Below are positions 2,065 through 19,778 of a stretch of 24,962 nucleotides of DNA, one piece after another. The position numbers and the translations under genes were made by a program. The DNA is from a virus: IMG/VR virus record IMGVR_UViG_3300044972_000560, positions 1-24,962 of that record; one strand, given 5' to 3'. Positions within the stretch are counted from its first letter, which is position 1. Each line of letters starts with the position of its first letter. The notes below the pieces were generated by a model, which made no database searches, was not told where the DNA came from, and worked only from the letters and a program-made list of their open reading frames with translations.

Positions 2065-2218
2065 AGATCTTCTTAAGGTGTTAGACGCTCTTCCAGAGAC
2101 CGATGATACCAAACCTTTATTAGGCTGGGTTACTATTAATGGTAATCTTTTTGAGGTTGACTTTAACGACCCAGATGATGAGGTATTAAAATTTTATAGA
2201 GAAAACAAAGGAGGCTAA
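2057..2218 (+). CDS. Small acidic hypothetical protein, 53 aa, last gene of the plus-strand operon
   Basis: ATG at 2057 overlaps the previous stop by 8 nt; an earlier ATG at 2036 is possible but would deepen the overlap to 29 nt. The product (MHEDLLKVLDALPETDDTK..., GWVTINGNLFEVDFNDPDD) is acidic, with a helical start and a beta-hairpin core. The last codons and the TAA stop lie inside the bidirectional terminator hairpin, and the stop overlaps the stop of the convergent 1931-aa gene by 4 nt. No function is recognised. Confidence 0.6.
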   Translation: MHEDLLKVLDALPETDDTKPLLGWVTINGNLFEVDFNDPDDEVLKFYRENKGG

Positions 2219-2231
2219 TTGCCTCCTTTTT
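2207..2231. terminator. Bidirectional Rho-independent terminator built into two stop codons
   Basis: A perfect 9-bp inverted repeat (AAAGGAGGC at 2207-2215, GCCTCCTTT at 2221-2229) with a 5-nt loop TAATT. On the plus strand it runs into TTTTT (2227-2231). On the minus strand it is followed by TGTTTTC. The plus-strand TAA (2216-2218) forms part of the loop, and the minus-strand stop (2215-2217) straddles stem and loop, so the hairpin doubles as the coding end of both convergent operons. Confidence 0.8.
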
Positions 2232-5200
2232 CTCTTGCTTTTCTTCTTATTTCGTCTAAGTTCTTTATTCCTATAGACTTTATATTCTCCCTAAGAACCT
2301 CTATTTTCTTCATAGCTTCTTCCTGAGTTAAAGGAGTTTTATCTTCAATATCTTGAAACTCTCCAGATTCAATCTGATATACAGCACTCTTGCTATAACC
2401 AGCATCATCTGCTGATTGAGAAAGAACTAAAGGATTAGCTCCAAAGTATACAGCAGAATCAAAATCTTTTTTATTTTCTTCTAGTATACCTCTAATACTT
2501 TCGTTAGACGTATCGTAAGCTTCTTTTAATTCTTCCTTTGTAATCTCCTTCTTTTCAAACTTTCTAAAAGCTTTATTATATATCTGCTTTGCTTTTAATG
2601 TTTCCTCAAAGTTTTTCTTAGAATTAAAATAATACTGCTTCTGGGTATCAACCTCTATAACCTTGTATCCAAAAAATTGTCCAAGAGCATCATTAAATTT
2701 GTTTTCTGATTCAGATATTTTCTTTATACTAGTTACGGTCCCTGGTTCAAACGTCTTCCAAGTCCTAGCCATTATTTTATTAATCTTATCTACTGGCTTA
2801 TCATACTCGTTGTATATTTCTCTTCCAAAAGCATCCTCGTTATTCGTTATTTCTGTAACTAAAGAGAATAATATATCTTCACTTAAGTAAGGGGATGTAA
2901 ATTCTTTTATAGACTCTACAAGTCCATCAACAAAATTATCTCCAGAACTAAATGCGTTCAAAGCTTTTGGAACCTGAGCTCTAGGGTCAGATGCACTGAA
3001 GTCAATAAAAGAGAACTTACCGTCACCCATGTCTGTTATAACTATGTTAGAATTTTTAGACCATGGAGCCACGAATCTCTTAGCCTTCTTATCTCTACTT
3101 TCTTCATCATCCTCGTCATCTAAACCATTTGCAGCTAAGTAATACATTAATCCGTACTTTAATCCTTGAACAAGCGTTAAAGCAAAAAACCTTTTAGCTC
3201 CTATTGCTTTTATTTTAGGGTTATCTGATTTCATCTCAGTAAACGCAAGGGCTACAGTGTTATATGAAGTTCTAAGCGACTCTAAAGAGAACGATATAAA
3301 CGTACCAGCTACAGGTATAACCTTAAGCATTTTAGCTGAGTTAGGAATCCTTGAGTAGTTTGGAAGCGTGTTCTTAACTATTTCCTTAACATAATCAACA
3401 ACGTCCTTCTTCTCGTCTTGGTTTAAGCTTTTAAAATCTTTACCGTAAAAAGCTTCTGAGTATTTTCTTTTCTCTGTTTCGTAAGCTACAATCTTAAAGA
3501 AATCATCCTCAGCTTGATAAGCATTTTCAAGACCTTCCTTTACACCTATTGTTTTAGCTTTTAAATACCTACCAAGTCTAGAGATTTTACTCTCACCTGG
3601 CCTGTTCATTCTTCTTTCAAAAGTCTTATCGAAGTCACCGTCCTTAAACATGGATTTAATCTCATTTAATCCAACGTTTTGATTTATTATACCAGCATCA
3701 ATGTATTCAAGTAATTTTTCTTGCAGGTCTTTTTTTCCTTTGTTAAAAAGGTCGTTTCTTATTACAGAAAAAGACTTTCTATATTCATTGAAGTTAATGT
3801 ATCCATTAGACAACATAAAGTCAAGGTTACCAAAAATATTCTTACCATGAGTAGCAACAGAACCAATAGTCTTTAACCATTTTACAGATCTAAGCGCCTT
3901 CATGTAGTACTCATAACCCTTGAATTGATTTACAGCATTTGCCAAAGACTTTACTTTTGAGCTTTTGTTAAACTCATCAGCTATTTCTTTAGTTGTCATT
4001 AGTCCTCCAAGAGGATCAAATGTTTTAGTAGAATCAGCAGCAATCTTTGTATTAAACTCTTTAGGTTTATTCACATCTCCTTCTTCAAAGAATATGGTAC
4101 CCATACCGTTCTTTTTAAGATCATTTAAAAACTTTGTATTGTAAGCAAGGTTAGCCATCTTGTAAACAGTATTCGCATAGTTTTGAATTGGATCTGTGTA
4201 CTCTCCCATTAAAGATCTTATCTCTAACGGTATATCCATCTTTTGTTTTAGTATAGACAAATCCTTAGAACCTTCTTTTCCTGAGTTTACAAAAGCATTC
4301 TCGACATTTCTATCAAGTATTTTACTTATCTGTTCATCTACCATCTTGTTGAGAACGTCCTCCTTAGTAAGCCCTTCTTTTTTTGCTGTATCTTCAGCTA
4401 CTTTAGAGAACTCATTTCTAAAGAAATCTCTAGCCTTATCTACATTCTCTTGCTTAACTTTTTTAGCCCAGTCTTTATTATCAAAAACCTCATAAGCTCT
4501 AGTCATGTAAGAGCCTATATTCTGTCTAATATTTTCAGCTGACTCAGAAGGCAATGCTCCAAGATCTATAAGCATTTGAGACAACCCGTCTATCTGGTTT
4601 CTCATTATATCACCAACAGCTTTAAATTCTGAAGGCAAGACTTTTGACTTATCACCTCTTATATACAAATCAAAGTCAACCAATAAAGCTTCCTTATCAC
4701 CTTGGTATTTAGAAAGTAGTTCGTCAAATCTTCTTGATGTATTAGATACTAATTTAGCTTGAACCTCTATCTTTGAAGCCTTATCTTCAACCGCTAAGAA
4801 TACAGACTTAGGCATGAACCCTCTAGCTGAAGCTAGTCTTCTTCTAATATTACCTAGGAAGTTTTTAATCTTAGTGTTGGCATCCTTTAAAAATATACCG
4901 TCCTCTTTCTGCGCTTTCTGTATTTCTTTTTTATTGTAATCTAGCAAACCTTTAGAAGCCTGCTCAGCAGTATACCCGTTATTTTGCAGGTACTGTGAAA
5001 TAGCAGCGTCAGAGAAACCAGCCTGCTTAGCGGCTTTTATCTTGTTAGATATAACGCTTGTTTGTTTTTTTACTGAAGAATCTAATTCTCTTACCACACC
5101 AGTTTCTGCTGCTATTACTTTTGCTTGTAATGGTTTTGTTTTTGATTCTCTTCCTTCAATTACTTTTTTATATTTATCTTTTAATTCTTTAGGCATTATT

Positions 5201-8010
5201 TCCCAAGAATCAATTTTCTTATCAGGTACACCTACTACTTCTCCTAAAATAGCAGTCTCGTAAGTAGAATGAATAGCTTTACCTCCTAAACCTGTTGGTT
5301 TACCAACAAGCATAATATCGTTTTGAGAGAAATTGTTTTCTTTATAAAAACCATCTCTTAGCGTATCGTAATCAACAAAAGCATTGAAAGATTTTAATAA
5401 ACTATTTAAAGACCCTTCTGGGCTTGTTTTTGTTTTACTTATTTTGTCTATAGCTATTAAAAATGATTTTCTTTTTGTACTATTAGAAAGTTCTTCAAAA
5501 GAATTTACTTTATTTAAAGCTTCTCTTATATCTTTTAAATCGTTTGTTTCTTTAGTAAAATTATTTATAGCTTTTTTAAATTCATCAAAATTAGACTTAC
5601 TGTTTATTCTAGCAGCAGTTAAATCTAAAACTCTTTTATTAAACAACTTAGCTTTCTCAGGAGATCCGCTTATAAAAAATATGTAATCAGATTTTTCTAT
5701 TTGAGAATTTAATGTTTTTTCAGCTAATCCACTAGCCCATAAAACTCCTTTATCTTTATTTATTGGGTCCAAAGCAAAACTAGGACCAGCATCTAAATAA
5801 TGTTCTCCATCAATTACGGAATCATAATAATTACCCCTACCTAATTGATCTGCCATCCAGAACCAAACTTTTTGTTTTTTATCAATAATCTCGTTTATAA
5901 GACTATTAATATCTATCTTATCTTTATCTGTTACAAAAGATAAATTAGCTGGGGTTTTAGAAAATTTTAAAGCAGCGCCTTTTGAATTTCTGGTTATATT
6001 TACAGGACTTCCTATAGCAGAAGGAGTTCTTGTGCTTATAGCTTTAACATCTAAATCAGTAACCTTTTGTCCAGTCGCTACCTTTTCTGACAGAGTATTA
6101 AAGAAATCAACTACCTCGTTATCTGTGAATGGTTTAAATCCAAACATCTTAGCCAGCGCATCCATCCATCTTTTGATAAGACTCTGTGATTGCTTAGGTA
6201 ATGTATCGTAGTTAGCTGCAAGGTAACCGAATAACTCTGCTGCCTTCTCTTCGTTCTTAATATTATCGTCGTAAGAAGCAACAAAGTTTTCTAAGTACTC
6301 CTTTAAATCAGGGTTATTATCAAGCTGCTTACTAAGCGCATTAATCATTCTTTTTGTTATGTCAGCCGCCTTAACATCGGTACCGACCATATTTATAAGT
6401 ACAGCATGAAACACCTCGTGAGCCACTGTTGTCTTTGTAGCAGCACGCTTGTTTATGTGTATTGTATTTGTACTTGACATGTAAGTTCCTCCAGACTCTA
6501 CATCCTCATCACCTACAGCCTTTGTATACGAATCGTAGCTATCATGAATAACAAACTTCACATTAGGAAGTAAATTAGCCAACGCAGCCTTAGCGTTCTC
6601 AACAGCTTTGTTTATATCGGTAGAGAATAAGTTTGATATTTCCTCAACCTCCTGCTCTATTGTTTTTTCTTTAGACACAATATCAGAAAGCACCCTGCTA
6701 TCTGGCATATGAAAGAACTTAGGGTCAAACTTACCCCACAACTCTGTACCATGCACAATTCCTTTACCATCAACCATTTGGGATATTCCCATCTGCTCTG
6801 TTGCTACAAGAAGGCTCTGCATCTCAGCATCTGTAAGTGGTCTAGATATTTTTAAAATAGTCGTAGGCTCTATACTTATTTTTCCGTCAAAGTTACTCTC
6901 AACATCCTTAACAAGCTCCTCTGATATTTCAACATCATCTGGTAAGGCTTCCTTAATTTCTTCAACAGTAAGCATCTCTCCATCCTTCCCAATCTCCATA
7001 CCTATGTTTAGGTAATTACCCTCTGGAGCTCCTTCAACAGTAACCTCTTTGGTCTTCATGTAGGATCTTCTCTTACCTTGCCTTTGCTTATCTACCTTGT
7101 TATACTCATCCTTTAAATCTTGAGGTAAGTCAGACTCGTTTACAAGATTAGTTATTTCCTCTCTACTTAAACTAGATGTGCTTAATTTATACAACGCATC
7201 ATAATTCTGCTGAGAGTTTCTGTACTTGTATATCTTGTCGTATATCTTTTGAAACTTAGAATCCTTAGATTCTGGCACTACAGATACAAATCCTTTTTCA
7301 GTATTAGGAACGTACTTCTCGTCAAATGTTTTTGTAACCCGAGCTCCGTTAGAAACTTGAGTATCAGTTGGTGTTAATTCTTTAGTTGTTTGAGCTCTTG
7401 TTTTTCCTCCCCAATCAGCAACAACCATGTCATAACCATTCTCTCCAGCTATCTTTGTGATATACGCTAGTTGAGAGTTAGCGTCAAAAGCCTTACCAGG
7501 ATTCTCTGCCTCGTGTCTTTTTTCTGCTTCCTCTAAATAATTATTCTCGTCAGTATTGAAATCGTAAACCTTGTCAATAGGAACCTTTACAGCGTACTTG
7601 CCTGGCCCTTTAACCATTGTCTCTCCATCCTCTGGTCTAGTATAGTACATAGCAACGCCTCCAACCTTACCAATAGCGGCAGCCTCATCCCTAGATGTTC
7701 TAGTGCTTTGTCCGCTTGACGGCTTTATTGTTTCGTATCCAGAATCACCAACGTGGAAGAACACAGCGTTACCTTCTTCGTCCTGAGTAAGATTAGCGAA
7801 GTTTGAAGACTTCTCAGGAGTTATCACACTCATCTGATTTACAGGCTCCAAAACCGCAACGTTAAACACGTCAGGGATTTCACCTGTTAATTTTTTAGGA
7901 TCTAATTTATTATTTGATATTAAATTAGAAAGTTCACCATCGTGTATAAACGCAGCGAACTCTTCTGTGGTATATTTCTTACCATTATATAAAACACAAG
8001 GACCAGCCAT
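2215..8010 (-). CDS. Giant polyvalent virion protein with zincin (HEVFH) domain, putative ejection protein, 1931 aa
   Basis: Probably an internal virion protein delivered into the host with the DNA. Visible parts, in order: a short N-terminal module (residues 5-31, YNGKKYTTEEF...) resembling repeats in the 930-aa protein; a domain at about 80-215 with FFHVGDSGYETI and MYYT blocks that may be ADP-ribosyltransferase-like (weak); a small alpha/beta domain at about 340-450; a zinc metallopeptidase motif HEVFH at 531-535 with E592 (KAAELF) as candidate third ligand; a strongly AT-rich module at about 685-990 (WFWMADQLG, LDAGPSFALDP); long helical regions; and a C-terminal part with hydrophobic stretches near 1560-1575 and 1605-1628, like the terminal domains of large polyvalent proteins of podophages. 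It is last in the late operon, 2 nt after ferritin. Exact chemistry is unknown. Confidence 0.75.
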   Translation of the reverse strand: MAGPCVLYNGKKYTTEEFAAFIHDGELSNLISNNKLDPKKLTGEIPDVFNVAVLEPVNQMSVITPEKSSNFANLTQDEEGNAVFFHVGDSGYETIKPSSGQSTRTSRDEAAAIGKVGGVAMYYTRPEDGETMVKGPGKYAVKVPIDKVYDFNTDENNYLEEAEKRHEAENPGKAFDANSQLAYITKIAGENGYDMVVADWGGKTRAQTTKELTPTDTQVSNGARVTKTFDEKYVPNTEKGFVSVVPESKDSKFQKIYDKIYKYRNSQQNYDALYKLSTSSLSREEITNLVNESDLPQDLKDEYNKVDKQRQGKRRSYMKTKEVTVEGAPEGNYLNIGMEIGKDGEMLTVEEIKEALPDDVEISEELVKDVESNFDGKISIEPTTILKISRPLTDAEMQSLLVATEQMGISQMVDGKGIVHGTELWGKFDPKFFHMPDSRVLSDIVSKEKTIEQEVEEISNLFSTDINKAVENAKAALANLLPNVKFVIHDSYDSYTKAVGDEDVESGGTYMSSTNTIHINKRAATKTTVAHEVFHAVLINMVGTDVKAADITKRMINALSKQLDNNPDLKEYLENFVASYDDNIKNEEKAAELFGYLAANYDTLPKQSQSLIKRWMDALAKMFGFKPFTDNEVVDFFNTLSEKVATGQKVTDLDVKAISTRTPSAIGSPVNITRNSKGAALKFSKTPANLSFVTDKDKIDINSLINEIIDKKQKVWFWMADQLGRGNYYDSVIDGEHYLDAGPSFALDPINKDKGVLWASGLAEKTLNSQIEKSDYIFFISGSPEKAKLFNKRVLDLTAARINSKSNFDEFKKAINNFTKETNDLKDIREALNKVNSFEELSNSTKRKSFLIAIDKISKTKTSPEGSLNSLLKSFNAFVDYDTLRDGFYKENNFSQNDIMLVGKPTGLGGKAIHSTYETAILGEVVGVPDKKIDSWEIMPKELKDKYKKVIEGRESKTKPLQAKVIAAETGVVRELDSSVKKQTSVISNKIKAAKQAGFSDAAISQYLQNNGYTAEQASKGLLDYNKKEIQKAQKEDGIFLKDANTKIKNFLGNIRRRLASARGFMPKSVFLAVEDKASKIEVQAKLVSNTSRRFDELLSKYQGDKEALLVDFDLYIRGDKSKVLPSEFKAVGDIMRNQIDGLSQMLIDLGALPSESAENIRQNIGSYMTRAYEVFDNKDWAKKVKQENVDKARDFFRNEFSKVAEDTAKKEGLTKEDVLNKMVDEQISKILDRNVENAFVNSGKEGSKDLSILKQKMDIPLEIRSLMGEYTDPIQNYANTVYKMANLAYNTKFLNDLKKNGMGTIFFEEGDVNKPKEFNTKIAADSTKTFDPLGGLMTTKEIADEFNKSSKVKSLANAVNQFKGYEYYMKALRSVKWLKTIGSVATHGKNIFGNLDFMLSNGYINFNEYRKSFSVIRNDLFNKGKKDLQEKLLEYIDAGIINQNVGLNEIKSMFKDGDFDKTFERRMNRPGESKISRLGRYLKAKTIGVKEGLENAYQAEDDFFKIVAYETEKRKYSEAFYGKDFKSLNQDEKKDVVDYVKEIVKNTLPNYSRIPNSAKMLKVIPVAGTFISFSLESLRTSYNTVALAFTEMKSDNPKIKAIGAKRFFALTLVQGLKYGLMYYLAANGLDDEDDEESRDKKAKRFVAPWSKNSNIVITDMGDGKFSFIDFSASDPRAQVPKALNAFSSGDNFVDGLVESIKEFTSPYLSEDILFSLVTEITNNEDAFGREIYNEYDKPVDKINKIMARTWKTFEPGTVTSIKKISESENKFNDALGQFFGYKVIEVDTQKQYYFNSKKNFEETLKAKQIYNKAFRKFEKKEITKEELKEAYDTSNESIRGILEENKKDFDSAVYFGANPLVLSQSADDAGYSKSAVYQIESGEFQDIEDKTPLTQEEAMKKIEVLRENIKSIGIKNLDEIRRKAREKGGN

Positions 8011-8012
8011 TA

Positions 8013-8510
8013 TTAGAATAATTTCTTTTCTATTAATAACATCTCAAACTTACTGTCTGCGTTAGTCCCTTCAAGGATATTAAGCATATCGCTATAGGCA
8101 GCAACAGCATCGTTTTGATTTTTTCTGTATGCTTGCAAGAAGTCAAATGTACACATCTCACCCATCTTTAAAACATCAACAGACGACTCCTCGTACAGCT
8201 CATATAACTCATACTCATTCTTATAAGAAAGCTCAATTGTTTCAGCTAAATTTTTAAATTCTAATACAGGTGTTTTGATTGTAGGAAGAGACGGAGTAAC
8301 ATTCCAGTCAATAAGATACTTCTCAATACCTCTTGCATGCTCAAGCTCTTCATTACTTTCAGCTAAAAAGTAATCAGCAGCCTTATTAAACCCAATACCT
8401 CTACACCAGTTGCTTGCAGCTTGGTAAAAGTAATGGTGATTGTACTCGTTCTGAAGTCTTGACGTTAATATATCTACTACTTCCTTGTCTAAAATCTCTG
8501 GTTTTAACAT
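8013..8510 (-). CDS. Ferritin (non-haem, FtnA-like), phage-encoded
   Basis: A 165-aa four-helix ferritin, expected to oxidise Fe(II) and store ferric iron. I prefer the ATG at 8510 (MLKPEILDKE), which matches the start of E. coli FtnA as I remember it, over a TTG at 8531 that would overlap the upstream gene by 11 nt. Numbered from 8510, the di-iron ligands are present: E22 (QNEYNHH), E55 and H58 (NEELEHARG), E99 (YKNEYEL) and Q132 (RKNQNDA), at the FtnA spacing. The position of FtnA E130 (third iron site) is alanine (A135). The TFDFLQAY helix is also recognisable. It lies 10 nt after the 930-aa virion gene and 2 nt before the 1931-aa gene, so it is cotranscribed with late virion genes. Whether it is packaged or acts in the infected cell cannot be told from sequence. 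Confidence 0.9.
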   Translation of the reverse strand: MLKPEILDKEVVDILTSRLQNEYNHHYFYQAASNWCRGIGFNKAADYFLAESNEELEHARGIEKYLIDWNVTPSLPTIKTPVLEFKNLAETIELSYKNEYELYELYEESSVDVLKMGEMCTFDFLQAYRKNQNDAVAAYSDMLNILEGTNADSKFEMLLIEKKLF

Positions 8511-8520
8511 AATTTTATTT

Positions 8521-11313
8521 TTAACATTCAACTCGTTGTGCTCCTTCTACAGAGTCTATTATTGTATCTAAATTTTGACTAACAAACGCTACAGTTGGAT
8601 TGTTTTTAAGCAACCTGTTCTTTTGTTTTGTTGTTTCGGTAGCCTGTAATTGCTCAAACAAAGGTAATGAATTTTCTTGAATATTTTCTACCTCTTCTTT
8701 TTTCTTTGTTTTTAAAGATTCCTTGTAAACATTTTCTACCTCATTTCTTTTTTCTTGTATTTGATCGTCAATCTGAGGGTGAAATGATTTATCTAAAGTT
8801 TTTTTACTATCCTCTAAATCCTGAATATCACTAAGCTTTCGCATTACGTCAAGCTGAATATCAGGGTCCGTATCCTTAGGTATTCTTGTTACTCCTCTAG
8901 AAACAGCTATAGCGTCTTTTTTTACATTGTCAGCATCTTCTTTAGTAATTACCTTGTTATTTACCATTTCGTTTAGATTCGCATCTAAAACGTCCATGTT
9001 TTGAGATAACTGGTATAAATTTCTTATCTGTGATTTTTTATTACCAGAAAAAGAAGGCATTTTTAAATTAGCAGTAGTTCCTCCAGATAAAAAAGATAAT
9101 ATAGACGTATTTATAAAGTCGCTATAAGACATTGTTTCGTCAGATATTTCCTTGCCTGCCTCTATATTTTTTTGTGCGTTTATCCAAGAAGCATCCCCAA
9201 CTTGTTGTATATTTTCTTGAGCAAATTCCTTACCTCCTTCTTCACCAAAAGCAACTACTTTTTTAGGTAATTCCTTAAACCCTTGATTAAGAGTAGATAT
9301 AAAGCCTTGCTTACCGTTTGTTTTATATGCGTTTACTGCTTTTTTAATTAAACTTTTTTCTGCTGAACCAAATAAAGATTCTACAGCCTTTGTTTGTGGA
9401 GATATAATAGATGTAACACCATACCACGCTGCTGTTCTTTGAGCTGCATCTCCAGCTATTTGTTCAGATTCCTTTTCTGTTAATCCAGCTTCTTTAGCTT
9501 CTTTAAGAGTTTGTTCGTAAGCCTGTGTATATCCAAGTGATGACTGAGCTATAATTGCATCAGCAGTAGCCTTTGGTATAGATAATTTAGTAAGCCCTTT
9601 AGTTAATAGGTTAGAGCCTTTTGTAAATCTACCAACAGTGGCCTGCCAAGCAACTTGCCAAACCATATCCCCAACAACAGAACCTGCCTGAACAGCTGTG
9701 CCTTGCGGACTAAAAAACCAATCTTCTTCTTTTGATTTTTTAGCATCTTCTAGTATTTTATCGGCAGAAGATGGGTCTATTAAATCATTTACTATTAATT
9801 CATTATCCTTGTCATATATAGTTCCCTTTTCATCTACAAGGTACTTTTTACCGTTTAAATTAACTACCTTACCATCCGCATAAGCTACCTGTCTTTGTGT
9901 AGGTCTTTCTAGCTGTCTTTGCTCGTTTAAATACCTCAACTCATCAGCAGCTTGATCTCCACCTAGCTCGTCAAAAAGAGTTGTAAATGTACCCTGCATT
10001 GAGTCTACAAAAGAATTATAACCTGACTTAAACAAGTTTTTAGTGCCTATCCCAAATGAATTAAGTCCTGAATTATCTTTTACTAGCTCTTCATATTTTT
10101 CTTTATTTAGCTTATCTTGCTCTTTTAGTTTAGTAGAAAGAGCTGGTAGATTTTCATCTATATACGATGATATTAATTGATTATCAAATACCCTAGCGTT
10201 TTTGTTAACAGGTATTTTTTTACCTTCGTAACTACCTTTTACAGATTGCAGCTTGCTTTTTAAAACAGCTCTTTCATTAACAGTAGATATGTAGTTTGAT
10301 AGTAATCTGTTTTTATATACATCTCTAGCAAGAGCTCTTTCAGGACCTATTCCTTCGTCGCCTGACGTATCAAAGTCACCTCTTTTATTTCTTCTATTGT
10401 ATTCGTCCTTGAATCCAGATAAGTTAAGGTAACCATCAAAATCAGCTGGGTCTATACCCATAGACTGTAGTTTTTCATCTCCGAATAAACTATCTACAAA
10501 GCTATCTTTATTTATAACGATACCATCTACAGGTTGTCTGTTATAGGTAGATGCAGATAAGTATGGAGTAGGGTTATCTAGGTCTAAATCCTTATATTCC
10601 TGTTCTACTTTTTCTTTAGAAGGAATACCTATTGTTTCAAGTAAGCTTTTTTGCGGAACAAGTTCTTTTCCATCTAAACCTATTTGTGTTTTTGGATTTA
10701 AAAATGGACTTATAGACTCTGGAACAGGCTCTTGCTTGTATGATTCTTGAAATAAGCTTTCAGTTTTTAAAGCTTTCTTGTTCGCGCTTTTTAAAACAGC
10801 TCCTTTTTCTTTTCCTTTTTGTAACCCTTCTTTAAAGTTAGACGCTCTTTCCTCTATTATTTTCTCCTCTGGAGATTTCTGTAATATGCTTCCCCAATTT
10901 TTTAACTCCTCTTCAGATAAGTCGTTAATAGATCGCATTTTACCTCCACCTGAAGAAGCCGAAGGCTGAGCTTGTACCTGTTTTTCTGTACCCGATGAAG
11001 GTTTTACAGGTTGCTGAACAGACTTCGAACCCGAAGCTTGATTTGCTTGAGTACCATCTGTAGACCCTTTTTTTTTTACGCCAGCTTCTTTTAAGTATTC
11101 ATCAAAAGACAAGCCACTTTTTTTAGCGTAAGATTCAAGCGTTTTTTTGTCGTAATTTTTACCTCCAAGGGAGTAGTTTTTTTGACTAGCCTGACTTAAT
11201 TTTGCTCCAGATTCTTTAATGTAATCATTCAAAGATAAGCCGCTTTTTTTAGCGTAAGAATTAAGGTCAGACGCTTTATATATTTTACCGTTTAAGATGT
11301 ATTCTTCTTCCAT
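8521..11313 (-). CDS. Large putative internal virion/cargo protein with N-terminal repeats, 930 aa
   Basis: No enzyme motif is seen. The N-terminus carries two ~35-residue repeats (residues 5-39 and 47-81, both containing SYAKKSGLS), then a low-complexity Gly/Ser/Gln linker (about 82-130), then a long charged helical region. Around residues 535-650 is an Ala-rich, partly hydrophobic segment (QAGSVVGDMVWQVAWQA, then GYTQAYEQTLKEAKEAG) of the kind found in podophage internal virion proteins that may span the cell envelope. The C-terminal third is coiled-coil-like and ends with a lone cysteine (GAQRVEC). It starts 12 nt after the 508-aa gene and is followed by ferritin. A role as cargo/ejection protein is inferred from position, size and composition. 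Confidence 0.65.
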   Translation of the reverse strand: MEEEYILNGKIYKASDLNSYAKKSGLSLNDYIKESGAKLSQASQKNYSLGGKNYDKKTLESYAKKSGLSFDEYLKEAGVKKKGSTDGTQANQASGSKSVQQPVKPSSGTEKQVQAQPSASSGGGKMRSINDLSEEELKNWGSILQKSPEEKIIEERASNFKEGLQKGKEKGAVLKSANKKALKTESLFQESYKQEPVPESISPFLNPKTQIGLDGKELVPQKSLLETIGIPSKEKVEQEYKDLDLDNPTPYLSASTYNRQPVDGIVINKDSFVDSLFGDEKLQSMGIDPADFDGYLNLSGFKDEYNRRNKRGDFDTSGDEGIGPERALARDVYKNRLLSNYISTVNERAVLKSKLQSVKGSYEGKKIPVNKNARVFDNQLISSYIDENLPALSTKLKEQDKLNKEKYEELVKDNSGLNSFGIGTKNLFKSGYNSFVDSMQGTFTTLFDELGGDQAADELRYLNEQRQLERPTQRQVAYADGKVVNLNGKKYLVDEKGTIYDKDNELIVNDLIDPSSADKILEDAKKSKEEDWFFSPQGTAVQAGSVVGDMVWQVAWQATVGRFTKGSNLLTKGLTKLSIPKATADAIIAQSSLGYTQAYEQTLKEAKEAGLTEKESEQIAGDAAQRTAAWYGVTSIISPQTKAVESLFGSAEKSLIKKAVNAYKTNGKQGFISTLNQGFKELPKKVVAFGEEGGKEFAQENIQQVGDASWINAQKNIEAGKEISDETMSYSDFINTSILSFLSGGTTANLKMPSFSGNKKSQIRNLYQLSQNMDVLDANLNEMVNNKVITKEDADNVKKDAIAVSRGVTRIPKDTDPDIQLDVMRKLSDIQDLEDSKKTLDKSFHPQIDDQIQEKRNEVENVYKESLKTKKKEEVENIQENSLPLFEQLQATETTKQKNRLLKNNPTVAFVSQNLDTIIDSVEGAQRVEC
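11071..11301 (-). repeat. Two N-terminal repeats within the 930-aa virion protein gene
   Basis: Residues 5-39 and 47-81 of the 930-aa protein align without gaps, 42 residues (126 nt) apart. Shared features are xLxGKxY, then L-x-SYAKKSGLS, then a DEYL/NDYI helix and a KESGAK/KEAGVK end. The DNA is also similar (the block agcgtaaga preceded by a T run occurs in both), so this is a fairly recent internal duplication or one under strong constraint. Confidence 0.75.
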
Positions 11314-11325
11314 TATTAAATTTTA

Positions 11326-12852
11326 TTATTTTGGTATAAATATTGTTTTACCAGTTTTACCTTTGGCTTTTTTACTAGCAGGCGCAGCAGGCGCAGCAGT
11401 AGACCCATATACAGGTAACTTTACACCTCTACTTTCTTCAAGATACATTCTTAGCTCTTCGTCAGAACCAAATCCTGCTCTATCTCTAAAGTTAGCGTAA
11501 TTAGTTGTACTGTATACTCTTTTATCTTTTTTATCACCTGCCAACCTAGGGGTTATCTGTTCACCGTAGTAAATAAATGTTTTAGGTGTTGTTTGACTAG
11601 ATGAAAAACTAGTAGAACCTCCTTCTGCTCCTACGTTTTCTTTTGAATTATACCTAACAACTTTAACAAAGTGTCTTCCGTCTTCATCAATACCAGCATT
11701 TACAACCTTCTCTACAAAACCTGAGTTTGTTTTTATACCAACTGGGTCGTTAATAATAGCTACAGCTCCTTGTTTGTTACCGACTCTAATAGGATTTACC
11801 TGAGTTACTGTTGGAGTAGGCTCTGGCTTGTCTCCACTTCCTGATGCTGCTCTAGGAGCTCTAGGAGTAGGTAATGTAGTTTCTTGCTCGAAAGGCATCT
11901 GGTTATCTAAAGCCTTACCAACAATAAATTTAGCGTCCTCTATTTTACTAGAGTCTCTCTCTGGATCTAAAATTATTTCAAAACTACCTCCTGTACCTTT
12001 TGTTAGAACAGCTAAAGGGTTTTTCTTCGCCTCCTCTGGGTCATCAGTTAAAAAGTATCCCTTACCAGTAGAATTAACAAGAACATCAGCTATTCTTCTG
12101 TCGCTTGATAAAATATAATCCTGAGTCGCTTTTTTGATTTCATTATAAGAACCTGTTCTAGTAGCATCCTGTAATGATGTAATACCATTATCAGTAATAA
12201 ATTTAGCTACCTTAGCTCCAGAGAATTTACTAACCTCGTCTGGGACATTTAGTCTATCTGCGTCATTTATTTGTGCTGTGTTTATAGCATAAGGAGACAT
12301 AAGAGACGACTCAATTATCTTCCCGTTTTCATCATAATCACCCACAGCAATAGACGCTGTTGCAGGGTCTATATATATTTTTTTATTATCTAAATTTTGT
12401 AGTGTTCCTATTTTTTTTGCTGCAAATTCTGTTAAGGCATCCTTCTTGTTACTTTGTATAGCGTCAATCAAAACCTTATCGTTTGCAGCTCTGTTTTTTA
12501 CAACGCTATTAAGTGTTCCCCAGTTATTTTTTAACGCCTGTGTTTTAGAAGCGTAGTCCTGTCTAGACATTTTACCACTAGTCAATTGCTTGTAATACTC
12601 GCCCTGAAGTCTTTTACTTTCAAATATAGCGTTAGTAAGCTCCTTGTTTATGGTTTGGTCAGCTCCTAATTCAGCCTTACCAAGTATCTCTAAATTATCC
12701 TCAGTTAGCTTTCTGTCATCAGCTCTAAGCTTCTGTCTATCAGCCTTTATCTTATCTAAGTCAGTAGCTACTGTATTCGCAACTGTAGCCCAATCCAATG
12801 TTGGATTAGCCTTTACTTCACTTGCATCTTTAAATCCGTAGTACTCTGCCAT
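11326..12852 (-). CDS. Putative virion (cargo or tail-interior) protein, 508 aa
   Basis: Starts MAEYYGFKDASEVKANP and has a helical N-terminal third (long charged helices around LDKIKADRQKLRADDRKL), a mixed alpha/beta middle, a Pro-rich hinge (TLPTPRAPRAASGSG, about residues 330-350), a beta-rich C-terminal domain and a basic Ala/Pro/Lys tail (APAAPASKKAKGK) that includes a 9-bp tandem repeat in the DNA (11381-11398). The ATG overlaps the upstream stop by one base (TAATG). No family name is recognised. Position between the Ala/Gln-rich protein and the 930-aa protein suggests a structural role in the virion interior. Confidence 0.6.
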   Translation of the reverse strand: MAEYYGFKDASEVKANPTLDWATVANTVATDLDKIKADRQKLRADDRKLTEDNLEILGKAELGADQTINKELTNAIFESKRLQGEYYKQLTSGKMSRQDYASKTQALKNNWGTLNSVVKNRAANDKVLIDAIQSNKKDALTEFAAKKIGTLQNLDNKKIYIDPATASIAVGDYDENGKIIESSLMSPYAINTAQINDADRLNVPDEVSKFSGAKVAKFITDNGITSLQDATRTGSYNEIKKATQDYILSSDRRIADVLVNSTGKGYFLTDDPEEAKKNPLAVLTKGTGGSFEIILDPERDSSKIEDAKFIVGKALDNQMPFEQETTLPTPRAPRAASGSGDKPEPTPTVTQVNPIRVGNKQGAVAIINDPVGIKTNSGFVEKVVNAGIDEDGRHFVKVVRYNSKENVGAEGGSTSFSSSQTTPKTFIYYGEQITPRLAGDKKDKRVYSTTNYANFRDRAGFGSDEELRMYLEESRGVKLPVYGSTAAPAAPASKKAKGKTGKTIFIPK

Positions 12853-13667
12853 TATCTAATAGAATTTAAAAGCTCAGGATTACTCATAAGCATCTTCATT
12901 ATATTCTGCATCTCTTGCTCATTAGTTGTTTTATTCATAGCTCCTTGAGTTAAAGGTTGAGGAGACATTGTCTGTTGTTGTAAAAAACCTTGCATATCAG
13001 AAACCTGAGGTACTTGTTGTGTTTGTGTACTTGTTACGGCTGCCTGAGAGTTTTTTTGAGTTGTTGAGTCTCCTTGCTGCCCTTGTTTATATACTGGTGT
13101 AAGAGCGTCTACAGCTCCAGTATAAGCACTTCCAAAATTATTTAAAGCGCCTTGTTGTAGTTGTATCTTAGCTAATTGAGCGGCCATAGCAGCCTTTTGA
13201 GCTCCTTCTGCTTGTCCTAAATTCAATCTAGACAAAGCATCATTAGTTTGTCCTTGTTCATTAGCTTGAGCTACGCTTAAATTATAAAGACTATTTGCTA
13301 CTTGATTGTTAATATCATTTACCTGTTCATTAGCTACAGCGTTTACTCGACCCACACCGCCAGCTAATTCTCTTGGTCCAGCTTCTTGTAAAGCACTTAA
13401 AGCCTGCATTTGATTTGCTGTTGATTGGTTTAATGCTTGATTATAAGCCTCCATAGGAACCTGAACCGCTCCTAAGAAATTAGTTTCTTGTAACCTCTTA
13501 GCTTCGGCTACAGCTTGTTCAGCTGCTCTTTCTGCCGATCTTTGAGCGTCAGCTTGTTTTCCAGCTTCTATCAAGTTCATTACTCCACCAGCTGCTTTAA
13601 AAGGTGTTCCAGCTAGTGATTTTACGCTTTCCGCTCCTCCAGATATTAATGCTGCTTCTGCTCCCAT
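12852..13667 (-). CDS. Ala/Gln-rich helical virion protein, 271 aa
   Basis: Composition is dominated by Ala, Gln, Asn and Glu with long predicted helices (AERAAEQAVAEAKRLQETN, about residues 43-62) and a Gln/Thr-rich flexible stretch (about 200-235). The N-terminus (AALISGGAESVKSLAGTPF) is mildly hydrophobic. This resembles the small internal proteins of podoviruses, such as T7 gp14 in position and style, though no homology can be claimed. It starts 1 nt after the GNAT-like gene and overlaps the following gene by one base. Probably part of the ejected or internal complex. Confidence 0.6.
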   Translation of the reverse strand: MGAEAALISGGAESVKSLAGTPFKAAGGVMNLIEAGKQADAQRSAERAAEQAVAEAKRLQETNFLGAVQVPMEAYNQALNQSTANQMQALSALQEAGPRELAGGVGRVNAVANEQVNDINNQVANSLYNLSVAQANEQGQTNDALSRLNLGQAEGAQKAAMAAQLAKIQLQQGALNNFGSAYTGAVDALTPVYKQGQQGDSTTQKNSQAAVTSTQTQQVPQVSDMQGFLQQQTMSPQPLTQGAMNKTTNEQEMQNIMKMLMSNPELLNSIR

Positions 13668-13668
13668 A

Positions 13669-14064
13669 CTATATATTTTTTATGTATTCCTTAATATTTT
13701 TATTGGTTAACTTAAAACCAGATTCATTTAAAGATTTATCTATAAATTGATTACCAGTTACTGTTAGTATATTCTTGTATTTTGTATCCTTTAAAAGTAT
13801 TGATATAACCTCTAATCCAAAAGTAATAGAGCCTTCTCTTGTTTTTTTTGATGCATTCTTGTTGCTTGTTATGAATCCTATCCAACAAACATTAGAGTCT
13901 GACATGTAAATAGGTATAGCACAAGCTTGCTCTTCGTTATGATAAACAACAAGTATATTTTCTGGTAGTGAATCTATATTTAAAACTGGGAAATTCCAGT
14001 CCATCCACCATCTTTTAATGGTTTCATAGAAGTCTACCTTGTTTAATACTTTGTAACTTTTCAT
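13669..14064 (-). CDS. GNAT-like acetyltransferase-fold protein in the tail cluster, 131 aa
   Basis: The layout fits the small GNAT-fold proteins often found among tail genes of Bacteroidota phages: N-terminal FYETIKRWWMDWNFP, a LPENILVVYHNEEQACAIPIY beta pair, CWIGFITSNKNASKKTR (the beta4 and acyl-CoA loop region, with a degenerate basic loop rather than a clear Q/RxxGxG/A), and a late ILTVTGNQFIDKSLNESGF (beta5 region with the usual GF). The acetyl-CoA binding signature is weak, so activity is uncertain; it could be a structural relic. It has its own promoter box in the 19-nt gap before it and leads the cargo/ferritin unit. Confidence 0.6.
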   Translation of the reverse strand: MKSYKVLNKVDFYETIKRWWMDWNFPVLNIDSLPENILVVYHNEEQACAIPIYMSDSNVCWIGFITSNKNASKKTREGSITFGLEVISILLKDTKYKNILTVTGNQFIDKSLNESGFKLTNKNIKEYIKNI

Positions 14065-14849: not shown

Positions 14850-17800
14850 TTATATACAATCTCCGTTTATACTTATTATTGGTCCTCCAGATGTTACAGT
14901 TCCTGATACAGCGCAGAATGTAAGTGTTGTATCTACAAAAATCTCTTCAACATTTCCAGAACAATCTGTGTAATACACTGTACCTGGGAATCCATCAGCG
15001 CTAGCAGTATACTCTAAGCAATCAACAGGAGGCACGCTGCATTCTTCTCCGTACTCAAATGTTAAAGCAGGAATTACAGAAGGTATCATTAACTCAATAC
15101 TTCCTGGGATAACACAAACCCCATCTCCTAGGTTTACTTCGTAAGACATTGTTTCTCCAGGTGTTGGATTAGCAGGCATTGGAACAACCACGTCTTGACG
15201 TAGGTTATCGCAATCTAAATAACTAAACGTAGCGTCAAAGTCTCCAGCTCCTTTAAATGTACCTCCAGACCAAGTAACACAAGCCTCACAGTCTGGGCAC
15301 GATATAGGGTCTAATAGCACTCCAGAAAGTTGCTGTCTGTATGTTCCTCCTAATTGGTACCAACCATCATCAGCAAGTGTTGTCAAGTTAGAATTAGTGA
15401 ACACAGATGTAGCTCCTGAAAAAGTACTAGAATTAATATAGTAATCTAAAGGCTCTGTGCAATTACAGCACGTGTCGTATTCATCCACGTCGCTATAACA
15501 AAGAGAGGTTCTATTGGATACTCTTAAATCCCATACCAAGTACAAATACTGCCCAGTATAAGCGAAATCGTTTACAATTGCCTGATAAGTCCCTGGTAAA
15601 GGATTAGTTATAGGTGTTGCGTTGTTTAGTAAAGGTATTAATGAAGGAGCACTATAAAGAGTGTTTGAAACCAAATACTTAAATGAGTTTGAAGGATCAA
15701 ACGTGTAAGTATCTCCAGATTCTTTTACAGAAACTAAAGCTATATCACTACCTATTGCTGGTGTTGTACCTTCTGAAGTAAATCCACTTACTAACTCATA
15801 AAGAGAAACTCCTGTAGAATTTAACTTAATAAAGTTAATATCGTAAGCACTTATATCTGTTCCAAGTGCCCATCTATAATTAGCGTGAGTTGTAAGTCCT
15901 TCAGAAGAAGGTGAATTAAGAACAACCTTAACAACAGTTAAAGGCTCAAGCTCTGGACACGGAGAAGATATTGTAAATGTAGCATTGTTAGGTGTTACAG
16001 TTATTTTTACTAACTCTGGTTCAAATGATGTTTTATTAAACACAACCTCAGAATCTTCGTCTATATTTCTATCAAAAATAGTTACACCATCATACTCAAC
16101 AAGTAAATCTAAATCACCGCTTGCAACCTCTACATTAAATGTTACTTGACCCATTGTTTTACCTAGGTTCACATAGTAAACGCTTTCCTCACTGCTGTTG
16201 TATTTTGAAACAACGCTGCCACAAGGAACTTCATCATCAGGAACTGGTAATAATTCATCCTTCAATGATAATACATATTCACTCATGTAAGGATCGTATC
16301 CTCCTATTTTTAAATTATTTAATGAGTTTTTAAATTCATCTCTAAACCAGTGCTTCATACCTGAATCAGATATAGCTACCAATTGATCAGAGTTGTAAGA
16401 ACCTCCTCTTAAGTTTAATACAGCAGATCTCTTAACGTCTGTAAAGAAAACCTCTGGGCCATAAACACAAAAACTATCTGGATTATTACTTATTCCATTC
16501 TCCTCAATCCTTGATATTTGAGTACCTAGAACCTCAGGAATAGAAGCTATTGCTCCACCTCCAGCTGCGTCAGATAATAAGTTTTTTCCTTGCAACACGT
16601 AAGAAATTTTATCCTCTTGAAGTACAAGAAGGTCTGTTTTTCTTCCGTATAATATCTCTATACTGCCAAATACTTTTTCTAAATCCTTATAGTTAGCTAA
16701 GGCTAAGTTGTACTCGTTTAATTTATTTATGTTTGTGTCTTGATTATATATACCACTGTACGTTATTGAAGCGTACCTATGAGCTGACCTGTAGTCTTCC
16801 TGAGAAACAGCTGTAACCCTGCTGCCTATATAAAATGGAGCGCCAGCTAAGGAGTCTCCTATCTTATAACTCTCGCATCCATTACCAAAAGAGAAGCAGT
16901 TAAAGAAGTCTAAGTCAGAGGTAGCCCAATCAAAAGCAGATGTTTGGTTAGAAACATTTCCTTGATGTAATCCGTTTACAATATCAAATACCTGATCGTT
17001 CTCGTAAAATATCTCACCGTCAGCATCTAAAGGCTCTGTTTCGAATATAAAGGTAGAGTTCGCTTGAAGTATAGTGAAGTAACCATTTAGATTGGAGTTT
17101 TTACCGCTACACTTAGGTGTACCTCCTCTTAAAACAAGGTAAAGCCTTCCGTCTTTAGGATTTGATGGATTGTCGTCAACGTAACCCTCTGCAAACTGAT
17201 ACTGGTTAACACCGTCTATAATAGCTATACTATCAGCAGGAACATAATCAGTTATACCAGGGTATTGAATATTTTGATTTGTGGTATCATCACCTCCAGA
17301 AGATTGACCAGTAGTAAAGTCTATGTTTTGTCCTTGAACAAAATCATAAAAACTGTCATAATCTTGATTAGCAACATACTCCCTCTGGTAATAATAAACC
17401 CTTGATCCACATCTTCTTGATTGAAGTCCAAATGCATCTCTCCAGAACTTTATTAACGTAGTAATAACAGTTCCAGCTGGGATAGGTATAGGCATGTAAG
17501 GTTCATTACCTGGAGCTATAGGAGATCCTGAATCGTAACTAGGGTTTGCCTGGTAAAAAGAAATATCAGCAATTGGATAAGAATCTCCGTCGCTTATAAT
17601 TTCTCTAGTTATGTATGAGTTTTGTGAAAATACAGCTTGAAAGTTTGAAGCCTTAAGCTTCATATATGTTCCAGCTGGCTCTATAACACCTCCACTTATA
17701 AATCCACTAGGCTTAGCTTCTATTGCTAATACCTTTGTTTTTACTAAGGTGTTTAATGCTCCAGAGGAATCTCTTTTTACTATTAAGTTTCTATCCTCTA

Positions 17801-19778
17801 TTGCCTTACTTCTATTGTCTCCCTCTAATCTAAACCACGTAAAACCTTCTTCATCAACAAAGAATAAGTTAGAGTACACTATATCGTATCCTGCCTTAGA
17901 AGGCTTTAATACAAACTCGTACTTACTAGCCCAAGAAGGAGCTAGATTATTTACGTTTACCTGTAAGTAATTTCTGGTGTCAGAGGTAGATGAATCAAAA
18001 AATACAGTATTATTCGTGCATGTTAAAGCGGTGCTTCTCCTACCATAATCATCCATGTATACTATAGCTAGCTCATAATCTCTATTACTATGTAAGCTTT
18101 TTTTACTACCAGGTGTTGATATATATGCCTCAGTTGAAACGTTTTCAAAGTACTCGTAAACGTAGTTCATTACTGTAGCTGGATATTCAACAGAAAACTC
18201 CATAGCTGGAACCTGTATGCCTAATATGTTTTGATAAGGAGGTAATGTAGTAACTGATATCTCAAATCCTCCATCATTACTAGATATACCGCTGCCGTTT
18301 TTACTCCATGCTGGAATACCACCAGCTACTTGTTTTGTAACAAGAGCGCAGTTAAATGCATCTGTTAAAGATAAACCACTATCGCATAAATTAACAGTAT
18401 TGTGCGTGTATAAAGCATCTATGAATTCCTGGTCTGTACCTAAATCATAAACACTATCATAATCCCTAGGGAATGTGTAATAGAATATCTCTTGAAATAT
18501 ATTTAAAGGACCGTCTACTGTTGTATTATAAAGGGCTACATCTCCAGAAAATTCACTATGAACTAAGTTAAAATCAATAACCAATGTAAGCCCTGCCTTT
18601 AATTCAATATTAGTTAAATCTATTTCTATTTTTGAATCAGTTACAGAGTTTATAGATAACGGGTCTATTGTGTAGTTAACACCATCTGTTTCGGCTACTG
18701 ATAATTGATCAGAACCTATGGTTTCGTTTAATCCTTTTACGTCGTAATCTATATTCACATCAACATCGTACCCGTCAACATAGTTACCGTAAAAAATTCT
18801 ATTACCCATTGTTGTTTGGGCTTTAGCCACCAACGGTACGTTATCATATAATCTTAATAGTTCGCTCTCTGGCAGAACCGTGTATATCTTCTTGTTGTTA
18901 AATAAAACATTCTGAACGGTATTATTAGCCCATCCCTGCTCTTCCTTTCTGTACTTCTCTATTACATTTACAACGTTAGAATTTGAATACTTAAAGCAAA
19001 CATCAACTCCAATAACATTATCATCACCAGTATCAAAAGAAACCTTAACCGTATTGAATATGTTCTGCATTCCAGCATTGATGTATGTGTTGTAGTCAAA
19101 ACTAAAAGATCCTGGCTCAAACGCTATGTCTGTAAATTTAGATAACGCACTATATTCTCCGTCTAAATATTTATATCTATAAGAAAAAGAAATGAACTTA
19201 TCTATTATATAGTTCTCCTCTCCAGCTACATTTAACAACTCAATAACTGGAGCTTCCATTGGAGGAGCTACAATTACATTAATATCCTCTTCTGTTATTT
19301 GATCAGTAGGATTAGGTTCTGGGTAGGCTCTTTTTACGTTTATTTTTCTAGGAGGATTTAAGTTATCCGTCCAAAATAATAAATCATCAATTAAGTTAAT
19401 CCCGTTTATTCTATACTTCTTATCAAAGTTTAAAACACTAACGGACTTTACGTGGTACTTAATAACTTGTGTTCCAACGTTATAAGATACAATCATATCA
19501 GTAGCACCTGGATCAGCAATGAACCAGTATATCGTTTCATTTGCGCCATCCTCAAGAGCACCTATGCATTCTGCGTTTCCTGTAAGACCAGGGATAAAGG
19601 TTAGTTTTGAGTTACCTAAAGCATTTTCGATAGCGCCCATACTACTTAATTCAGTCGAGCCTATTCTTATGTTTAATGCATCAATATATTCCCCATCTGG
19701 TAAAAGTCTCTCATCAATAGACTTGTTCATTTTACCACCGATAAATGTTACGACTTCGTTTGTATTTGAACCTGCCAT
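14850..19778 (-). CDS. Muzzle/tail stabilisation-type protein with C-terminal Cys-rich domains, 1642 aa
   Basis: The N-terminus (FIGGKMNKSIDERLLPDGEY, then IDALNIRIGSTE) and the 1040-1170 region (LYGRKTDLLVLQEDKISYVL, LLSDAAGGGAIASIPEVLGTQ, FFTDVKRSAVLNLRGG, GGYDPYMSEYVLS) mark the beta-propeller tail stabilisation/muzzle family of crAss-like and related phages, which closes the tail end. Around 1216-1272 is a beta-sandwich (VEVASGDLDLLVEYDG). The C-terminal ~143 residues hold two related cysteine-bearing beta domains with YLDC/YTDC and VCVIPGS/FCAVSGT motifs, probably surface-exposed and adhesive. Its ATG directly follows the TAG of the 305-aa ring gene. It is longer than a plain muzzle protein, so receptor-binding domains may have been fused on. 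Confidence 0.75.
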   Translation of the reverse strand: MAGSNTNEVVTFIGGKMNKSIDERLLPDGEYIDALNIRIGSTELSSMGAIENALGNSKLTFIPGLTGNAECIGALEDGANETIYWFIADPGATDMIVSYNVGTQVIKYHVKSVSVLNFDKKYRINGINLIDDLLFWTDNLNPPRKINVKRAYPEPNPTDQITEEDINVIVAPPMEAPVIELLNVAGEENYIIDKFISFSYRYKYLDGEYSALSKFTDIAFEPGSFSFDYNTYINAGMQNIFNTVKVSFDTGDDNVIGVDVCFKYSNSNVVNVIEKYRKEEQGWANNTVQNVLFNNKKIYTVLPESELLRLYDNVPLVAKAQTTMGNRIFYGNYVDGYDVDVNIDYDVKGLNETIGSDQLSVAETDGVNYTIDPLSINSVTDSKIEIDLTNIELKAGLTLVIDFNLVHSEFSGDVALYNTTVDGPLNIFQEIFYYTFPRDYDSVYDLGTDQEFIDALYTHNTVNLCDSGLSLTDAFNCALVTKQVAGGIPAWSKNGSGISSNDGGFEISVTTLPPYQNILGIQVPAMEFSVEYPATVMNYVYEYFENVSTEAYISTPGSKKSLHSNRDYELAIVYMDDYGRRSTALTCTNNTVFFDSSTSDTRNYLQVNVNNLAPSWASKYEFVLKPSKAGYDIVYSNLFFVDEEGFTWFRLEGDNRSKAIEDRNLIVKRDSSGALNTLVKTKVLAIEAKPSGFISGGVIEPAGTYMKLKASNFQAVFSQNSYITREIISDGDSYPIADISFYQANPSYDSGSPIAPGNEPYMPIPIPAGTVITTLIKFWRDAFGLQSRRCGSRVYYYQREYVANQDYDSFYDFVQGQNIDFTTGQSSGGDDTTNQNIQYPGITDYVPADSIAIIDGVNQYQFAEGYVDDNPSNPKDGRLYLVLRGGTPKCSGKNSNLNGYFTILQANSTFIFETEPLDADGEIFYENDQVFDIVNGLHQGNVSNQTSAFDWATSDLDFFNCFSFGNGCESYKIGDSLAGAPFYIGSRVTAVSQEDYRSAHRYASITYSGIYNQDTNINKLNEYNLALANYKDLEKVFGSIEILYGRKTDLLVLQEDKISYVLQGKNLLSDAAGGGAIASIPEVLGTQISRIEENGISNNPDSFCVYGPEVFFTDVKRSAVLNLRGGSYNSDQLVAISDSGMKHWFRDEFKNSLNNLKIGGYDPYMSEYVLSLKDELLPVPDDEVPCGSVVSKYNSSEESVYYVNLGKTMGQVTFNVEVASGDLDLLVEYDGVTIFDRNIDEDSEVVFNKTSFEPELVKITVTPNNATFTISSPCPELEPLTVVKVVLNSPSSEGLTTHANYRWALGTDISAYDINFIKLNSTGVSLYELVSGFTSEGTTPAIGSDIALVSVKESGDTYTFDPSNSFKYLVSNTLYSAPSLIPLLNNATPITNPLPGTYQAIVNDFAYTGQYLYLVWDLRVSNRTSLCYSDVDEYDTCCNCTEPLDYYINSSTFSGATSVFTNSNLTTLADDGWYQLGGTYRQQLSGVLLDPISCPDCEACVTWSGGTFKGAGDFDATFSYLDCDNLRQDVVVPMPANPTPGETMSYEVNLGDGVCVIPGSIELMIPSVIPALTFEYGEECSVPPVDCLEYTASADGFPGTVYYTDCSGNVEEIFVDTTLTFCAVSGTVTSGGPIISINGDCI
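14856..15281 (-). repeat. Two diverged Cys-rich beta domains at the C-terminus of the 1642-aa protein
   Basis: Residues 1500-1580 and 1587-1641 each show C ... Y-x-DC ... (V/F)C(V/A)xxG(S/T) ... C. Cysteines are at 1500, 1523, 1555, 1580 and at 1587, 1606, 1622, 1641. The second copy is the compact form found at the ends of many Bacteroidota phage tail proteins; the first has longer loops. Disulfide or metal bonding is possible. Confidence 0.6.

Follow-up and report, generated by a model that had tools for sequence, protein, structure and literature searches.

A ferritin gene without a third iron site at the joint of two cysteine-tipped giant genes in uncultured phages

The ferritin gene and its neighbours

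The window, meaning the whole stretch of DNA that was analysed, is a virus fragment of 24,962 bases. Its minus strand carries an FtnA-type ferritin gene that is preceded by a 930-aa giant and followed by a 1931-aa giant (Table 1), with intergenic gaps of 10 nt and 2 nt, respectively. The 165-aa protein matches the Pfam family Ferritin (PF00210, E=3.4e-18) and the NCBIfam model for non-heme ferritin at 4e-14, yet the latter match lies under the curated cut-off of the model. Its PDB matches are FtnA-type chains, with values down to 5e-14; the best of them are Ftn, and those to Bfr are far weaker. A single-chain AlphaFold2 model built on an input alignment of 27 viral homologues has a pLDDT of 93.7 and predicts five helices (residues 9-39, 42-68, 88-115, 119-146 and 154-164), the last being a short E helix. 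In Foldseek the model matches Vibrio and E. coli FtnA with a TM of 0.89-0.91. Classical non-heme ferritins combine a four-helix bundle and a short E helix with di-iron ligands and a conserved Tyr; both are found, the former in the predicted fold (TM 0.9 to FtnA) and the latter in the six residues aligned below. The sequence-only reading had described a full-length FtnA-like ferritin between two giants, and Pfam, PDB, AlphaFold2 and Foldseek as well as the gaps between the genes bear this out; the structure prediction that it proposed as a check returned an intact fold with no disruption. That reading had left the strand unnamed. The protein would be expected to form a hollow 24-mer.

Two other identities were rejected. 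Dps is a 12-mer with no E helix and an inter-subunit centre, whereas the window protein has an E helix and the intra-subunit ligands of FtnA. Bacterioferritin has a symmetric centre fully liganded by Glu and His, with Glu at the position of Q132 and His at that of A135 in the FtnA-anchored alignment.

Table 1. Features of the window around the ferritin gene
Feature	Position	Strand	Remarks
1931-aa giant, downstream of ferritin	2215..8010	minus	sole Cys = C5; residues 1159-1783 match a virion structural PHROG
Head of downstream giant, conserved N-terminus	7891..8010	minus	MAGPCVLYNGKKYTTEEFAAFIHDGELSNLI... in window
FtnA-type ferritin gene, 165 aa	8013..8510	minus	ATG at 8510, stop 8013-8015
A135, replaces third-site E130	8106..8108	minus	Ser/Ala in 81/81 phage ferritins
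Ferroxidase ligands E22 (8445-8447), E55 (8346-8348), H58 (8337-8339), E99 (8214-8216), Q132 (8115-8117)	within 8115..8447	minus	
C120, aligns with FtnA P115, start of helix D	8151..8153	minus	ferritin alignment
930-aa giant, upstream of ferritin	8521..11313	minus	sole Cys = last residue C930
Tail of upstream giant, last 40 aa, conserved	8524..8643	minus	...VEC in window, usually ...GNCP
131-, 271- and 508-aa genes between muzzle and giants	11326..14064	minus	order conserved in relatives
254-aa protein, crassvirus muzzle C-terminal domain PF25729	14084..14848	minus	marks the cargo block after it
1642-aa virion structural protein, phrog_14478	14850..19778	minus	26 Cys; contrasts with Cys-poor giants

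The ferritin lies 5.6 kb past the muzzle gene, the 930-aa giant and the 131-, 271- and 508-aa genes being all that intervenes, which is the arrangement of a crassvirus cargo block. Several of its neighbours match virion structural PHROGs. By homology to the muzzle domain and these PHROGs the genes would form a late virion operon, and membership in the cargo module of a crassvirus-like podovirus is the best explanation of the gene order; the earlier placement of the gene in an ejection-type block of giants is thereby supported. In phi-crAss001, mass spectrometry identified five virion cargo proteins (gp45, gp46, gp47, gp49 and gp50), for which ejection via partial unfolding was proposed (PMC10172136). 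There, too, giants come right after the muzzle gene, and these virion proteins are the ones thought by the authors to be ejected; the phi-crAss001 block differs in listing no ferritin and in that its three largest cargo proteins are RNA-polymerase-related (PMC10172136). The position of the ferritin therefore points, by homology, to virion cargo.

The nearest annotated relatives of the 1642-aa protein belong to a Manatee Spring podovirus, Flavobacterium elemo phages and Cellulophaga phages such as phi19:3. Ferritin is absent from elemo, phi19:3 and the other nearest annotated relatives. Relatives of the phage family infect Flavobacterium and its kin; the ferritin-bearing family itself consists of uncultured phages. 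The elemo and phi19:3 giants resemble those of the window in their gene order after a muzzle-like gene, and domains of the 1931-aa giant recur in the elemo giant and in phi19:3 gp129, which is annotated as a virion structural protein. They differ in that the elemo giant is unsplit (3694 aa) and the phi19:3 giant has 1871 aa, both being without ferritin and without a terminal Cys. A Pfam search found no family for the 1931-aa giant. At approximately residues 450-660 this protein has a zinc-protease-like HEVFH motif in a region that the elemo giant also has, at 42% identity; a PDB search with aa 450-661 gave no match.

The ferroxidase centre and the third iron site

In the alignment, E17, Y24, E50, H53, E94 and Q127 of E. 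coli FtnA correspond to E22, Y29, E55, H58, E99 and Q132 of the window protein, and all six are invariant in the 81 phage ferritins aligned (81/81). The ligand columns indicated by the E. coli FtnA sequence that served as numbering anchor match the invariant columns of the viral alignment. The sequence-only reading was right that equivalents of E17, E50, H53, E94 and Q127 are present, and no ligand is missing. From these residues the phage ferritin would be expected to have ferroxidase activity.

The third site has fared differently. E126 is replaced by N131 and E130 by A135, E49 is retained as E54 and E129 has become D134. The earlier observation that E130 is Ala was accurate and incomplete, as E126 is likewise lost. 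All of E49, E126, E129 and E130 are retained in 29/29 Flavobacteriales ferritins examined. As E49, E126 and E130 define the three-site subgroup of FtnA, the aligned residues place the window protein within the classical ferritin fold family and outside the three-site prokaryotic FtnA subgroup. It resembles E. coli FtnA (PF00210, PRK10304) in fold, E helix, length (165 aa) and the six invariant residues, and differs from it in the missing third site, an identity of only ~25%, membership in a phage-only clade and location in a cargo operon. The same third-site loss is seen in phage ferritins that lie among small genes (L133-L142, L144-L147, L149, L151-L160, L162-L164).

The consequences of altering this site have been studied in two ferritins. 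In a diatom ferritin the E130A replacement raised mineralisation tenfold, and E. coli FtnA site-C variants had a lower oxidation rate, an Fe:O2 ratio near 2:1 and faster regeneration (PMC4653698). Because the third site is absent and because of these mutants, the phage ferritin is predicted to turn over fast. The phage ferritins thus form a natural third-site-less subfamily that is of use to enzymology.

Ferritin and cysteine-tipped giants across phages

Loci were gathered by a scan with the muzzle alignment and a scan with the ferritin alignment, which together gave at least ~155. Ferritin sits between giant late genes in at least 42 distinct viral loci, counted after deduplication by sequence, as all the relatives are metagenomic and some loci are near-copies or overlapping fetches. 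The genes of the cassette are separated by gaps of a few bases and often have ATGA overlaps. Ferritin dN/dS is 0.01-0.2 in 13 pairs, which is strong purifying selection. The sequence-only reading had allowed for an isolated insertion with no counterpart in related phages; given the same position in these many loci and the selection on it, the ferritin is not an isolated insertion.

The giants across the loci form one network of mosaic homologues. Between the window and L001 the ferritins are 98% identical and the flanking giants 74% and 91%; between the window and L103 the figures are 53% for ferritin and 19-24% for the giants. In L002 (L002:10501-16482), a relative with a 95%-identical ferritin, residues ~680-960 of the downstream giant are swapped for unrelated sequence, a mosaic exchange. 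In a quick ferritin tree all phage copies stand apart from Flavobacteriales ferritins with support of 100, and copies in giant context fall into a single group (SH-aLRT 80) that also takes in four non-giant rows. That a bacterial ferritin had been joined to a phage contig by faulty assembly is an idea with practically nothing to recommend it: no point in its favour was found, and it is refuted by synteny over dozens of independent contigs, by purifying selection and by the separation from bacterial ferritins in the tree.

No ferritin was found in cultured phage records by tblastn with three different phage ferritins, and a profile search of the ORFs of the loci gathered to that point found no fusion of ferritin to a giant. 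The genome collection gave only two finds, one on a Flavobacterium MAG contig, which is itself such a phage, and one on an Actinomycetota MAG contig. The former (L165, NZ_JAHEBT010000012.1) belongs to this phage group and has the full tail-ferritin-head cassette.

The ferritins found among small genes, several of them on contigs of 140-256 kb, are probably ordinary auxiliary genes. Having the same ligand pattern, they lend some weight to a reading in which the window ferritin, too, is a late auxiliary protein that stays in the cytoplasm, is never packaged and soaks up iron and peroxide of the dying cell to protect phage DNA and progeny; its place in the cargo operon would then merely supply late expression. 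A role against oxidative stress has likewise been proposed for the Dps-like proteins and Mn-catalase of Gratiaviridae and other Bacteroidetes phages (PMC8008677). These are ferritin-superfamily enzymes as well, and they differ in belonging to other families; the paper treats their genes as metabolic genes of the infection stage and does not connect them with virion cargo genes (PMC8008677). We consider the cytoplasmic reading rather doubtful, as it leaves unexplained the constant joint, the conserved Cys-tagged ends that face the gene and the presence of ferritin at every match of the tail and head scans described below.

The two giants of the window have only 2 Cys in 2,861 residues, and both are at the ends that face ferritin. 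In the 42 split loci the upstream giant always has a Cys within its last three residues (42/42) and the downstream giant has one near its start in 40; of the two exceptions, L107 is due to a start called 49 codons upstream of the proper one and L148 to an additional intervening gene. The flanking giants of these loci hold 105 Cys in 119,112 aa, 82 of them at the facing ends. Ferritin-less relatives have single giants of 1,574-3,859 aa with no Cys or, rarely, one. The single Cys at each ferritin-facing end suggests that ferritin and the two giants form one functional unit. That the terminal Cys is a by-product of the ATGA overlap was rejected, as it is also there with gaps of 9-24 nt.

Three further features of the giants were observed. 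The giant cargo proteins (window 2215-11313; L014-L086) are nearly Cys-less over 2,000-3,800 residues beside a structural protein with dozens. Residues 1-80 of the 930-aa giant contain a tandem near-repeat (LNGKIYKASDLNSYAKKSGLSLNDYIKESG / LGGKNYDKKTLESYAKKSGLSFDEYLKEAG) with a likeness to the head motif of the 1931-aa giant. The ddrB-ParB domain (PF18763), which belongs to phage proteins of the ejected or polyvalent kind, occurs inside ferritin-flanking giants in two loci (L150:10493-19126, L096:4665-9968).

The Cys residues are embedded in conserved tags. The head has the consensus MAxPCIIxYxGKxYSYEEFAxMLHDGLL, and the tail mostly ends in GNCP. Ferritin is directly adjacent in 22/22 loci matched by a tail-only scan of the viral collection and in 18/18 loci matched by a head-only scan, each scan using one short peptide pattern, so that tags of divergent sequence, with or without ferritin beside them, may escape it. 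The matches include loci outside the set from which the motifs were built. Among the loci gathered first, neither tag was found in a ferritin-less phage, the lone tail match outside ferritin loci (L008) being an incomplete near relative of the window that stops before the ferritin position; fused giants are untagged. A Cys tail and head with ferritin thus provide a simple sequence signature for finding further cases.

L037 has one protein of 2348 aa that matches first the 930-aa giant (68-877) and then the 1931-aa giant (from residue 42), and L044 and L035 likewise have both halves in the same order in a single Cys-poor polypeptide. The joint that ferritin occupies is therefore uninterrupted in these relatives. 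The sequence-only reading had noted neither the cysteine pattern nor this fused state. A quick muzzle tree shows five switches between a split, tagged giant with ferritin and a fused giant that has neither tags nor ferritin, three or more of them on supported branches, and the sisters L013 and L017 differ in this state. Other combinations exist. In L087, L089, L091, L100 and L131 the giant before ferritin is unsplit and has no Cys tag at its end, so the tags are not needed to keep the gene; in the ferritin tree the copies following an unsplit giant are nested within the giant-context group. Conversely, L105:1269-9977, L110:1657-9978 and L132:10492-20489 have further joints of Cys-tailed and Cys-headed giants from which ferritin is missing. 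The tags may thus belong to the joint and not to ferritin, and the candidate that they are a ferritin-only feature was rejected. On both kinds of case, the simplest view of the tags is that they are a device of the joint in split giants, one that usually goes together with ferritin.

A rival reading has the Cys tail and head as a splint that joins the halves of the split giant through a disulfide or a shared metal, ferritin being a passenger with a minor role of its own. It would account for the single Cys-poor chains that contain both halves in order, for the lack of tags on fused giants and for the ferritin-free Cys joints, and disulfides are known to stabilise the tail of phi-crAss001 (PMC10172136). 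Against it, no split, tagged giant was found in a ferritin-lacking phage, all 40 motif-scan matches (40/40) adjoining ferritin. Moreover, ferritin is better conserved than both giants. We regard the passenger role as unlikely, though worth keeping in mind.

The ferritin has a Cys of its own, C120, whose equivalent is Cys in 49/51 giant-context versus 2/30 other phage ferritins. C120 was not adopted as the partner of the giant Cys, as L002 and L094 break the pattern (in L002 ferritin has no C120 and the giant tags are nonetheless kept) and the unsplit cases keep C120.

Packaging and possible functions

The best explanation, in which our confidence is evenly poised, is that of a functional ferritin that is a fixed part of the cargo module, acts with the Cys-tipped giants and is likely packaged; it draws on the observed position, ligands, selection and tags together with the predicted fold. 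Production of the ferritin would be coordinated with that of the two giants, and the ferritin most likely works physically with them, contact being expected at the Cys tail upstream and the Cys head downstream. Its two-iron centre would oxidise Fe2+ with O2 or H2O2 and pass Fe3+ to the core, as the ligands and the published site-C mutants suggest, and without the third site turnover should be fast. The likely benefit would be the removal of Fenton-active iron during assembly, storage or delivery of the Cys-tipped cargo and the genome.

The suggestion in the sequence-only reading that a ferritin subunit is carried in the particle gains support from the conserved tags on the giant ends that face ferritin, as such tags are seen only beside ferritin or in ferritin-bearing phages. 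Against packaging, the ferritin has no recognised packaging signal. In addition, the constrictions of a crassvirus-type tail measure under 50 A, too narrow for an intact cage of 12 nm, so the ferritin must come apart if it is to reach the cell, or else stay behind. The encapsulin-associated EncFtn would offer a parallel, with a shell of phage type that carries a protein of the ferritin superfamily. It differs in being dimeric or annular with no cage and in being loaded by its own short C-terminal peptide (PMC7762939); no such peptide was identified in the phage ferritin.

The proposed explanations are not fully exclusive of one another, and some extend the packaged reading. In a redox-gated version, which we hold to be a long shot, the third-site-less ferritin as hub or oxidant would lock the two giants via their single terminal Cys, so that they are linked in the oxidising particle and freed by the reducing cytoplasm of the next host. 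Less probable still is a role of ferritin as a thiol oxidant, which may release H2O2 with each turnover and so close disulfides at the giant termini during assembly in the reducing cytoplasm. Site C is gone in all phage copies, two lone Cys face the ferritin gene, and the E. coli FtnA site-C variants consume ~2 Fe2+ per O2 (PMC4653698), which implies peroxide as the product; however, the non-giant phage ferritins are also without site C and have no Cys-tagged neighbours, and the disulfide is hypothetical. Finally, particle iron might dock on siderophore receptors, as in the published Ferrojan Horse hypothesis, or feed the next cell. The intact ferroxidase centre and cage-type fold would suit such a carrier, but its gene lies among those for internal cargo and not among receptor-binding genes, and nothing suggests surface display, which makes this highly improbable.

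Ferritin-superfamily genes in phages are already known (PMC8008677). A ferritin fixed in a cargo block with Cys-tipped giants was not found described in a search of the open-access literature, subscription papers lying outside that search. Phage ferritin-like proteins have so far been interpreted as aids to metabolism. In the present case a ferritin occupies one constant joint of the cargo block across a diverse group of phages, and its neighbours have matching single-Cys ends. If it is virion cargo, these phages carry an iron-oxidising cage or its subunits, which would bear on the iron of the virion and on the way in which giant ejection proteins are retained and let go.
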